Source of the DNA: Clostridiaceae bacterium | Lineage (GTDB): Bacteria > Bacillota > Clostridia > Clostridiales > Clostridiaceae | DNA length: 38,259 nt | Reading direction: 5' to 3' | NCBI GenBank assembly: GCA_029219285.1 | Contig: JAQXTC010000052.1 | Location: 1 to 38,259, forward strand | Shown: positions 396 through 6,090 of the stretch, piece after piece | Layout: each line of letters begins with the position of its first letter | Position numbering within the stretch: position 1 is the stretch's first letter | Position numbers and translations under genes: made by a program | The notes under the pieces: generated by a model | Databases searched by the model: none | The model's input: the letters and a program-made list of their open reading frames with translations, nothing else | Told to the model about the DNA's origin: nothing

Positions 396-1133
396 CTATT
401 CTTCCCATCCTTCAGGGAATTCAGCATTGTGGTAAACATTTTGAACGTCATCATCTTCATCAAGTAAGTCTAACATCTTTTGGAACTTCTTAGCATCATC
501 TTCATTAATTGCAGTATATGTATCTGGAATCATCTTAACTGCTGCTTCTAAGAATTCAACTCCTTCTGCTTCTAAAGCTTCTCTAACTGCTGAGAAATCT
601 TCTGGAGTTGTAGTTACAACAAATACTTCATCTTCTGCTTGGAAGTCTTCAGCACCAGCATCTAGAGCCATCATCATCATTTCATCTTCGTCTCTATCTG
701 CTTTTTCTATAACTATTTCACCTTTTTCTTGGAACATGAAGCTAACGCATCCTGAGTTACCCATGTTTCCGCCACCTTTAGTGAATGCATTTCTTACATT
801 GGCAACAGATCTATTTCTATTATCAGTAAGAGTTTCAACAATTACAGCTACTCCACTTGGGCCATAACCTTCATATACAATTGTTTCATAATTTACTGAA
901 TTCATTTCTCCTTCAGCTTTTTTTAATGCTCTAGTAATATTATCATTAGGCATATTGGCTGCTTTAGCTTTTGCAATTACATCTCTAAGTTTTGCATTGT
1001 TTTCTGGCTTAGCTCCACCTTCTTTTATTGCTATAGCTAATTCTTTACCTATTCTAGTAAAGATTTTTCCTCTTTTAGCATCTGCTTTACCTTTTTTGGC
1101 TTGAATGTTATGCCATTTTGAGTGTCCTGACAT
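396..1133 (-). CDS. yebC: YebC/PmpR (TACO1) family protein
   Basis: [32 protein letters not shown] is the family signature; full-length 245 aa. Confidence 0.95.
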
Positions 1134-1208
1134 GTGTATTCCTCCTATTCTTCATTTCTTAAAACTCTTAAAATTATATCACATATAATAAGGAAATAAA
1201 AGACATCT

Positions 1209-1856
1209 TTACATTTCCTTATACAGCCTATTTTCTTCCTTAAAGTAAATCCCTTCATCACTCTTCTCAATAATCACCTTACCATTAGTACATTCAATAG
1301 TTTCTTTTTCAATATTTTCAGCCACTGCTACTTCTGCTAATATAAAAATCCTAACCTTATCTTCATAAACAGTATCTTCAATATGCCATAAATTCTTTGT
1401 ACATATATATTGGATTTTACCTAACAAATCATAATCGATAGTAAGAGATAACTTTAAACCTTCTACTTTCTCAACAACTCCGGCAGCTTTTAATGCTATA
1501 GAGGCACCTTTTGTATAAGCTCTTGTTAGCCCACCAGTTCCAAGTAGTATTCCACCAAAATATCTTGTAACAACAACTACACAATCTGTGATATTACTTT
1601 TCTTCATTACATCAAGAATAGGAATACCTGCTGTACCTTGTGGTTCTCCATCATCAGAATATCTTTGAATTCCCATGTTTTCACCAATTACATAAGCCCA
1701 ACAATTATGTCTCGCTTGTTTATGTCTTGATTTAATTTCATTTATAAATTCTCTAGCTTCCTCATCATTTTCTACTCTTTTTGCATATCCTATAAATTCA
1801 GACTTCTTTTCTTCAAAAGAATCTTCACCATAATTTCTAACTGTTACATATGACAT
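1209..1856 (-). CDS. yigZ: YigZ/IMPACT family protein
   Basis: KKSEFIGYAKRV...SDDGEPQGTAGIPILDVM...VVVVTRYFGGILLGTGGLTRAY is typical of UPF0029/IMPACT. Confidence 0.93.
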   Translation of the reverse strand: MSYVTVRNYGEDSFEEKKSEFIGYAKRVENDEEAREFINEIKSRHKQARHNCWAYVIGENMGIQRYSDDGEPQGTAGIPILDVMKKSNITDCVVVVTRYFGGILLGTGGLTRAYTKGASIALKAAGVVEKVEGLKLSLTIDYDLLGKIQYICTKNLWHIEDTVYEDKVRIFILAEVAVAENIEKETIECTNGKVIIEKSDEGIYFKEENRLYKEM

Positions 1857-3259
1857 TTGTCTAATTCCTCCCTAATTATTTTAATTCCTTTAATTATCTT
1901 GTCTGAATTAGTTTGAGAAAAGCCAATTCTAAAGGTATTTACACCATCTTCCATATTTCTAAAAAATAAAACTCCAGGTGTTATATACACTCCTCTATCA
2001 GCTAATTTAAAAAACAACTCTTCTGATGAAATGTCATTAGATCTTAACTTTAAATAAAAATTCAATCCACCACCTGGCTTATGATATTCAATAAGATTAT
2101 TCAATTCCTTGTCAATACTTTCCATCATGTTATTATACCTTTTTCTATATTCTTCTTTTTGAAAGGCTATATTTTTTCTCCACTTCCCATCAGAAATGTA
2201 CATTTCTAAAGCTCTCTGCATTAAGCTTGATGTTGTTATATCTGTATTTATTTTTGAATTTTGCATACTCTCTTTAAAACATTTAGGTGAAATTATATAA
2301 CCAATTCGTATACCAGGCAAAAATATTTTAGAAAAACTTTTTATATAAATTACTCTATCATTTTTATCTAATGCTCTAAAAGATTTATAATTTACATCCC
2401 TATCATAAATTAATTCCGATAAATAATCATCTTCTATAATATAAAAATCATATTTTTCTGCAAATTCTAAAAGCTTTATTTTCTTTTCATACGAATAACT
2501 AGCCCCTGTTGGATTTTGGAAATAACTCATGGTATAAAAACATTTAATATTATTTTTCTTAATGACTTCTTCAAATACCTCAATGTTAACTCCGTCATCT
2601 TCCATTGGGACTTCAAAAATATTAGCTTTTCTCCACTTAAATACTGAAATTGCTCCACCATAAGTTGGTTTCTCAACAATTACATTATCATTAATATTCA
2701 AAATTGCTTTAGAGGCAACATCAATCCCTTGCTGGGCACCTGACACTATTAGTATATCTTCAACAGCTACTTTATTTTTCCAGAAAACTTTACATATAGT
2801 TTGTCTCAATCCTTCATATCCAAACTGATGTTGAGATATTAATGCCTCAGCTCCATCTCTATCTAAAACACTATTAATAACTTCTTTAAAATCGTCAATA
2901 GGAAATATAACTTCCTTAGTGGTTTCACCAGTAAAATCTATGATATCTTCCATACTCTCAGTTGTAAGCTTTTTAAAAGTCTTAGAATATTTTCTTCTAA
3001 AACTAGATATAATCTCTTTTCTTTTAGCATATGTACCACTACCAACTTTTTGATATGCATAACCATCATTAACAAGCTTTTTATATGCATTTATTATAGT
3101 TATCTTATTTACACATAAAAATTCAGCATAATTCCTTATTGTAGGTAGCTTTTCCTCATCATCAATTATCTTTTTCTCAATTAATAATTTTATATTATTA
3201 GCAATTTGAATATATTTAGGTATGTCACTTTTAAATTTAACATAAAAACACTTATTCAT
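1844..3259 (-). CDS. MocR-type regulator: GntR wHTH fused to PLP-dependent aminotransferase-like domain
   Basis: N-terminal wHTH (LPTIRNYAEFLCVNKITIINAYKKLVNDGY) plus aminotransferase fold I with YIKSFSKIFLPGIRIGY Lys motif. Overlaps the yigZ start by 13 nt. Confidence 0.9.
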   Translation of the reverse strand: MNKCFYVKFKSDIPKYIQIANNIKLLIEKKIIDDEEKLPTIRNYAEFLCVNKITIINAYKKLVNDGYAYQKVGSGTYAKRKEIISSFRRKYSKTFKKLTTESMEDIIDFTGETTKEVIFPIDDFKEVINSVLDRDGAEALISQHQFGYEGLRQTICKVFWKNKVAVEDILIVSGAQQGIDVASKAILNINDNVIVEKPTYGGAISVFKWRKANIFEVPMEDDGVNIEVFEEVIKKNNIKCFYTMSYFQNPTGASYSYEKKIKLLEFAEKYDFYIIEDDYLSELIYDRDVNYKSFRALDKNDRVIYIKSFSKIFLPGIRIGYIISPKCFKESMQNSKINTDITTSSLMQRALEMYISDGKWRKNIAFQKEEYRKRYNNMMESIDKELNNLIEYHKPGGGLNFYLKLRSNDISSEELFFKLADRGVYITPGVLFFRNMEDGVNTFRIGFSQTNSDKIIKGIKIIREELDKCHM

Positions 3260-4293: not shown

Positions 4294-6090
4294 TTATAAA
4301 TCCTTAATAATAAATTCTTTACTTTTATTATAAGTTTCTTCATCCATTTCTACTTCCATAAAGGTACCTTCATCTTTGTATTCTTCTGCTAATACTCTGC
4401 CATTTCTGTGCAAGAATGATACAATTTCCCCTTTATTATAAGGAATAATGTATTGAGCTTTTTTCATTTTATAAGGAAGTTTATTTTCTATTAAAGCCAA
4501 CAGTTCATCAAGATTAATACCTTCCTTAGCTGATACTTCTATTATCTCATCATAATATTTAATATTATTTTTAAGGTTTTGTATTTCTTGTTCATCTACC
4601 ATATCTACTTTATTTAATACTAATATAGTTTCTTTATCTCTAGCTCCAAGCTCAGCTAATACCTCTTCTACTGCCTTTATGTGTTCTAATGCATTATCAC
4701 TAGAAGCATCAACCACATGACAAAGTAAATCTGAATATATTACTTCTTCTAATGTAGATTTAAATGCTTCAACAAGATCATGAGGAAGTTTTCTTACAAA
4801 ACCAACTGTATCTGTTAATGTTATTAATCCTTTATTTTGAAGTACAATAGCTCTTGTTGTTATGTCTAAAGTTGCAAATAACATATCTGCTTCAAAAACT
4901 TTTTCTTTCAATTTAACTTCTTTGGAAGAAGCAATATCACAAAGGGAATTCCTAAGTGTTGACTTACCAGCATTTGTATAGCCTACTAATGAAACCTTCG
5001 GAATGCTCTCTTTGTTTCTTTTTTCTCTTTGAACTTCTCTATTTTTTTTGATTTTCTTTAATTCATTATTTAAATCATATATAGTTTCATTAATATGCCT
5101 TCTATCTGTTTCTAATTTTTTTTCTCCAGGTCCTCTTGTACCAATTCCACCACCTGTTCTAGATAAAACTGTACCAAGACCTAAAAGTCTGCTCTTTCTA
5201 TATTTTAATTGGGCAAGTTCAACTTGAATTTTTGCTTCTTTACTCTTGGCTCTTCTTGCAAAGATTTCGAGAATTAAAGTTGTTCTATCTATTACTTTAG
5301 CACCAAGTGTATTTTCTAAATTTCTTACCTGTGAACCTGATAGCTCATCATCAAATATTATTACATTTGCTCTACTAGTTTGTCTCAATGAAGCTATTTC
5401 AAGAACTTTTCCTCTACCTATAAAAAACGCAGGATCTATCTTATTTCTACTTTGGAATACTTTTTGTAATACTGGAATATCACAAGCTTTAGCAAGTTCC
5501 TCAAGTTCATCTAAACTTTCCTTAGTATCAGAACCTACAATTATAGCTTTTTCTTCATCATCTTCAACTATATCATTTTCTCTAATTAAACTTTCAATAT
5601 GTCTAGCATTATCTATTATATCTATTGCTAAAAGCTCTTCATATGATAAATTACTTTTTTCTTCATATATTAATACATCATTATAAACATTTAGCATTCC
5701 TAAAGAAAAATCTGTAATTTCCCCTTCATAAATACCAATTGATATGATAGCATCTAATTTTAATTTTAATAATGCAGATAAATCTAAAGCAGATAAATTG
5801 CATAATCCATTTGGATGTGTATGCACTACTCTTATGCCTGAAAGTCTAGCATCTCTTATATCTAATAATGGAAGTTCAACAGATGATGAATCTCCTATTG
5901 CTACTGAATGAACCTTTCCTTTTCTATCTATAGCAACACTTATTTCTCTTTCAATAGCTGCTGAAACTCTAGTCATTATTGAAACTATTTCGTTACTTAC
6001 TGCTTCATCTTTTGGATTTTTTATATTGTATATCTCTTCTAATTCATTTAAGAAACTTTTCTTAATTCCATCTATATTACCATTAATCAT
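4294..6090 (-). CDS. hflX: GTPase HflX with ~180-aa N-terminal extension containing a JAMM/RadC-like motif
   Basis: FIGRGKVLE, GGIGTRGPGEKKLETDRR, GYTNAGKST, DTVGFVRKLPHDLV and NKVD give HflX; N-terminal HTHPNGLCNLSALD fits HxH-x7-S-x2-D. Confidence 0.95.
   Translation of the reverse strand: MINGNIDGIKKSFLNELEEIYNIKNPKDEAVSNEIVSIMTRVSAAIEREISVAIDRKGKVHSVAIGDSSSVELPLLDIRDARLSGIRVVHTHPNGLCNLSALDLSALLKLKLDAIISIGIYEGEITDFSLGMLNVYNDVLIYEEKSNLSYEELLAIDIIDNARHIESLIRENDIVEDDEEKAIIVGSDTKESLDELEELAKACDIPVLQKVFQSRNKIDPAFFIGRGKVLEIASLRQTSRANVIIFDDELSGSQVRNLENTLGAKVIDRTTLILEIFARRAKSKEAKIQVELAQLKYRKSRLLGLGTVLSRTGGGIGTRGPGEKKLETDRRHINETIYDLNNELKKIKKNREVQREKRNKESIPKVSLVGYTNAGKSTLRNSLCDIASSKEVKLKEKVFEADMLFATLDITTRAIVLQNKGLITLTDTVGFVRKLPHDLVEAFKSTLEEVIYSDLLCHVVDASSDNALEHIKAVEEVLAELGARDKETILVLNKVDMVDEQEIQNLKNNIKYYDEIIEVSAKEGINLDELLALIENKLPYKMKKAQYIIPYNKGEIVSFLHRNGRVLAEEYKDEGTFMEVEMDEETYNKSKEFIIKDL

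Follow-up and report, generated by a model that had tools for sequence, protein, structure and literature searches.

The window, a 38,259-nucleotide stretch of a Clostridiaceae genome (contig JAQXTC010000052.1), carries on its minus strand an hflX gene with a Shine–Dalgarno-like GAGGTG directly 5′ of its ATG. The encoded protein is an HflX by its equivalog model, TIGR03156 (GTP_HflX), which scores 466.7 bits (E 4e-140) over residues 188–538 against a cut-off of 216.75. Pfam divides the same protein into PF13167 (GTP-bdg_N, residues 191–278), PF16360 (GTP-bdg_M, 280–358), PF01926 (MMR_HSR1, 365–494) and HflX_C (507–584). TIGR03156 and PF13167 place the start of the HflX core at residues 188–191, leaving ahead of it the roughly 180 residues that an initial annotation of this DNA, made from its letters alone, had set apart. 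That annotation located the extra domain within nucleotides 5671–6090, which correctly put it at the N terminus; the real domain is wider, spanning about residues 1–172, and gives way to a low-confidence linker (Table 1). At its very start, residues 1–8 (window 6067–6090; MIxGNxxGI) are near-invariant in Clostridiaceae, and G4 is almost so across all families.

Table 1. Features of the JAB-HflX gene and protein in the window.
Feature	Position (nt)	Strand	Description and basis
hflX	4294..6090	minus	598 aa; N-terminal JAB/MPN-like domain and canonical HflX GTPase; open reading frame, TIGR03156
JAB/MPN-like domain	5575..6090	minus	aa 1–172; AlphaFold, Foldseek, profile matches of homologues, conservation
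E49, predicted general acid-base glutamate	5944..5946	minus	precedes core strand 1 (aa 50–55); role by analogy with AfJAMM E22 (PMC300881)
H90-T-H92-x7-S100-x2-D103, predicted JAMM metal-binding motif, HTHPNGLCNLSALD	5782..5823	minus	aa 90–103; alignment and model
Linker between JAB domain and HflX core	5524..5556	minus	aa 179–189; pLDDT <50 (AlphaFold)
HflX core (ND1, helical domain, GTPase)	4477..5529	minus	aa 188–538; Pfam and TIGR03156

The N-terminal region contains HTHPNGLCNLSALD, an HxHx7SxxD pattern lying exactly where the initial annotation had reported it (read on the minus strand, nt 5823..5782). This pattern is expected 0.01 times in shuffled open reading frames of the window and is observed once; HxHPx6SxxD, also observed once, appeared in none of 2000 such shuffles. 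The initial annotation had reasoned that loss of H90, H92 and D103 in most homologues would tell against a metal site, and the opposite is seen: 109 of 121 aligned homologues keep H90, T91, H92, S100 and D103. Across these 109 motif-bearing sequences, drawn from 24 families, each of the five residues is present in every member (109/109), and E49, which turns out to be the upstream glutamate left unspecified in the annotation, is present in 108, with one gap. The six-residue set stays constant down to roughly 26–30% identity. A reduced alignment (A2; 82 sequences, mean column identity 41%) has eight invariant columns, E49, G58, G66, H90, T91, H92, S100 and D103, six of which make up the JAMM motif; the probability that four named positions would all coincide with invariant columns (8 of 185) is 1.5e-6. 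Shuffled-frame expectation and conservation together rule out a chance match. The arrangement E49-x40-H90-T-H92-x7-S100-x2-D103 is that of the JAMM/MPN+ motif, ExnH[S/T]Hx7SxxD (PMC300881). Two basic residues are near-invariant in the same 109 homologues, R56 (105 R, 3 K) and R87 (102 R, 4 K), and would suit RNA or a peptide carboxylate alike.

AlphaFold models of the window domain (pLDDT 87.2, pTM 0.84) and of a homologue with about 29% identity (pLDDT 90.7, pTM 0.85) both show the MPN/JAB arrangement, in which the glutamate lies at strand 1, HxH closes a strand and SxxD opens a helix. In the window model, helices at residues 11–22 and 33–46 are followed by E49, strands 50–55 and 60–65, a strand (86–92) ending in HTH, a helix (101–109) starting with the S..D element, strands 114–121, 124–136 and 139–148, and further helices. 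Searched against the PDB with Foldseek, this model returned only MPN/JAB proteins, or complexes holding them, among its top 20 matches; these included the 26S proteasome, CSN, Rpn8–Rpn11, CSN5, RadC (2qlc), PfJAMM1 and Mov34. For the model of the homologue, RadC took ranks 1–5 and CSN5 rank 6, and RadC-like JAB proteins are among the named hits with probability near 1 in a viral library. A fold unrelated to MPN/JAB, raised in the initial annotation as an outcome that would refute its idea, did not emerge, since MPN/JAMM and RadC proteins are the top solved-structure neighbours of two models. The PDB matches have high rmsd, TM values of 0.2–0.5 and a best E of 2.5e-3, and such low TM values and weak E-values indicate a divergent branch of the MPN fold. 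A cytidine-deaminase-like fold, suggested by weak Foldseek similarity, was rejected on the ground that conservation falls on the JAMM residues.

Single-sequence searches of Pfam, NCBIfam and the PDB with the window domain gave no match, leaving the first ~187 residues covered by no model, and kinship became visible through homologues and profiles. Among the A2 members, 46 of 82 (counted at E up to 1) match Prok-JAB (PF14464; best E 5e-5) and 29 of 82 match RadC (PF04002; best E 0.0039); the next family has 8. On the N-terminal domain every Pfam and NCBIfam model stays below its curated cut-off, and no JAB model matches the window protein at all; among homologues scored singly, none reached the Prok-JAB cut-off, and the best RadC score in ten of them was 15.7 bits against a cut-off of 22.1, which places them outside PF04002. 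Two HflX genes (G157:C7 and G192:C24) also came up when 61 genomes were searched blind with Prok-JAB. With A2 as the profile, a PDB search picked out two AMSH-like proteases, Sst2 (E=0.0012) and a second one (0.0064), and HTHP..S..D is kept in register. Profile–profile alignment with hhalign likewise brought HxHPxG, S and D of A2 into register with clostridial RadC (P=1.7e-4, probability 49%), a match comparable to that between the accepted relatives RadC and Prok-JAB (P 9.7e-5, 58%); A2 against Prok-JAB was weaker (P 0.0046, probability 8%). The JAB/MPN and RadC kinship first read from the motif agrees with the Prok-JAB, RadC and AMSH matches, which are in register in many members; those to Prok-JAB and RadC lie below the curated cut-offs. 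The N-terminal ~180 residues of this HflX are very probably a divergent JAB/MPN domain with a complete JAMM site.

The domain is a regular part of HflX in this family. It is found in 142 of 147 Clostridiaceae genomes, covering 46 of 46 genera, always (among the matches listed) inside an open frame of HflX length. One of the five misses lies at a contig edge; the other four, from one genus, have a plain HflX of 423–453 residues (L216–L219) that branches with another HflX lineage, which includes a second HflX copy of genome G166 (L227), and the absence of JAB-HflX there suggests that transfer or a second paralogue has replaced it. Several Clostridiaceae genomes have two JAB-HflX genes, and in one of them (G013; L043 and L044) the motif is intact in both. 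In a phylum sample the domain occurs in 71 of 399 genomes, spread over 26 families (the window's own and 25 further). It also occurs on a Fusobacterium HflX, 42% identical and bearing the motif HTHPGGNPHLSSVD. The Fusobacteriota genes (L232 and L233) come from records filed as plasmids, and at L233 a shikimate kinase gene lies just upstream and a WYL-domain gene downstream. No stand-alone copy of the domain was seen, the HflX core following it in every locus examined for which the whole frame was available, and phage records held no match to it. Plain HflX, with no JAB domain, works in many genomes.

In AfJAMM, the motif histidines and aspartate bind zinc, the glutamate serves as acid-base and the serine stabilizes the intermediate (PMC300881). 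We infer a similar metal centre and chemistry for the HflX domain: H90, H92 and D103 would coordinate zinc or a similar metal, E49 would activate the metal-bound water, T91 would brace E49, and S100 would stabilize the tetrahedral intermediate. That the site might instead be structural or a sensor, a zinc-binding domain regulating HflX, for example by coupling splitting to zinc supply, with no hydrolysis, agrees with the remodelling of mycobacterial ribosomes under zinc starvation (PMC12493154) and with the survival of the domain after motif loss, described below. A structural site, however, needs neither E49 nor S100, and both, catalytic and non-ligand in AfJAMM (PMC300881), are as invariant here as the ligands; this favours catalysis over structural zinc, and we regard the sensor explanation as improbable. 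The JAMM domain of HflX is predicted, as somewhat more likely than not, to be catalytically active.

Motif loss itself follows a pattern. In one family (f86) the motif has gone as a unit, H90 being replaced by F and H92 by R or K, and in a second group (f47 with f85) it has also been lost as a unit; in both, the domain is kept. The motif-less proteins lacking both metal-binding histidines are L111–L114 and L118 (f47), L220 (f85), and L115–L117 and L119–L122 (f86), and the HflX tree resolves f86 and f47 with f85 as two separate lines. Decay from MPN+ to MPN− is known for Rpn8 and CSN6, and the decay of the motif with the domain retained in two HflX lineages resembles this route to inactive MPN− proteins. 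Because the domain outlives the motif in two lineages, it should have a second, non-catalytic role. A single vertical history of the JAB domain was considered and is not shown, given that its label requires 11 changes on the HflX tree (36 in shuffles), of which well-supported branches force at least three.

HflX pulls stalled ribosomes apart, and active sites of the JAMM kind are also found in ubiquitin-removing proteases. GTP-bound HflX binds vacant or stalled 70S ribosomes, where ND1 pushes H69, and in mycobacteria an N-terminal extension touches uL16 and H38, reaches H69–H71 and disorders H68–H71 (PMC12493154). The core of the clostridial protein, in its GTP form, would dock on the same vacant or stalled 70S ribosomes and split them. 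Because a flexible linker connects the JAB domain to the ND1 that follows, the JAB domain should sit on the 50S intersubunit side; such a tether would place the domain on that face of the large subunit near the site of the mycobacterial extension, at uL16, helix 38 and the H69–H71 junction. The contacts of that extension, and a review that classes clostridial and Paenibacillus extensions together with it (PMC12493154), would fit a domain that is a docking module of the same sort, its metal motif a relic; yet the mycobacterial extension is 39–58 residues long against a folded domain of ~180, and a relic motif would not hold invariant over 24 families at ~30% identity, so that docking as the whole explanation seems very improbable. 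We infer instead a ribosomal location at which the JAMM domain would hydrolyse a bond in a substrate bound there; if active, it is quite likely to act on something at the ribosome.

As for the bond, cleavage of a protein or nascent chain at a peptide or isopeptide linkage is likeliest, and is favoured because the motif is of the AMSH/Rpn11 type, H[S/T]H. A nuclease, which after docking would use the same metal centre to cut the mRNA, tRNA or rRNA of the stalled ribosome, would accord with the proposal that RadC-clade and toxin JAB domains are nucleases (PMC3482391), with RadC being among the closest profile and structural neighbours, with the near-invariant R56 and R87, and with a partner GTPase that acts on an RNA machine. 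That RadC proposal is itself untested, however, and the structural relatives of a RadC-like domain analysed in 2025 included metalloproteases and no nucleases (PMC11981726); the HTH of the HflX domain is moreover that of canonical JAMM peptidases rather than the HNH of RadC. We consider a nuclease unlikely, and peptide rather than nucleic-acid cleavage a fairly likely outcome. Leaving the substrate aside, a JAMM hydrolase domain on HflX is the reading that we moderately favour. The fuller picture, of a widespread ribosome-rescue family in which a splitting GTPase brings its own JAMM hydrolase to cut ribosome-bound protein, nascent chain or RNA, is put forward tentatively, as possible rather than probable.

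The neighbours of hflX point to no substrate. No conserved ubiquitin-like, E1 or conjugation gene was found beside JAB-HflX. Shared neighbours at Clostridium loci are hpt-like, yunB, nucleotidyltransferase, mocR-like, yigZ and yebC genes; at the loci of other families, as assigned by reading the sequences, miaA- and spoVK-like genes commonly lie upstream of hflX and a methionine-gamma-lyase-like gene lies downstream. In the window itself, hflX is followed downstream by a nucleotidyltransferase gene and then, at positions 396–3259, by a MocR-like regulator, yigZ (UPF0029/IMPACT) and yebC (TACO1); related clostridia keep this order in part, and yigZ and yebC are possibly translation-related.

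Work on HflX, a model factor for ribosome splitting and antibiotic tolerance, has dealt mostly with forms without a JAB domain. The literature searched holds no description of a JAB, JAMM, RadC or MPN domain on HflX, the domain databases covered being Pfam and NCBIfam; unnamed automated annotation of the domain may exist in other databases. A 2025 review mentions the clostridial HflX extension only as an ‘NTE’, beside the mycobacterial one (PMC12493154). HflX and JAMM are known separately as building blocks, and their combination is new as far as the literature searched goes. If our reading is true, ribosome rescue in clostridia, Paenibacillus-like bacteria and Fusobacterium has a cutting step that current models have missed, and an undiscovered substrate is predicted. 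It would also mean that common bacteria of gut and soil use a JAB/MPN enzyme in translation quality control, no ubiquitin-like system being evident, and would make JAB-HflX a bacterial counterpart of proteasomal Rpn11, each being a JAMM enzyme built into a molecular machine.

Ordinary HflX proteins, such as those of Escherichia coli and Listeria (HflX/HflXr), have the same core as residues 188–598 but are ~410–450 residues long and have no JAB domain. Mycobacterial HflX shares the presence of extra sequence before ND1, and its short extension differs in kind from the domain described here; the Clostridium and Paenibacillus extensions classed with it (PMC12493154) are, in those examined here, JAB domains. 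The JAMM/MPN+ metalloproteases (AMSH/Sst2, Rpn11, CSN5, AfJAMM and PfJAMM1) share the motif, whose residues are predicted by the models to occupy equivalent structural positions, and they provide both the nearest profile (AMSH Sst2) and the nearest structures (Rpn11, CSN5 and PfJAMM1); the HflX domain differs from them in its TM values of at most 0.5, its lack of a significant single-sequence match and its fusion to a ribosomal GTPase. It resembles Prok-JAB peptidases in the matches of more than half of its homologues, and differs in that no E1 or ubiquitin-like operon partners were seen. With RadC it shares a glutamate before strand 1, HxHPxG and S..D at a helix start, in the same order, as well as the 2qlc match; unlike RadC, it has HTH in place of HNH and lacks the VHPREIF segment that follows strand 2 and precedes the motif, and the genome that carries this JAB-HflX has a true RadC as well, at another locus. 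A further architectural likeness is to RadC-like DinG, in which a JAB domain is also fused to a nucleic-acid machine and in which the RadC-like domain, modelled with zinc, has an order of elements close to that of the HflX domain (PMC11981726).
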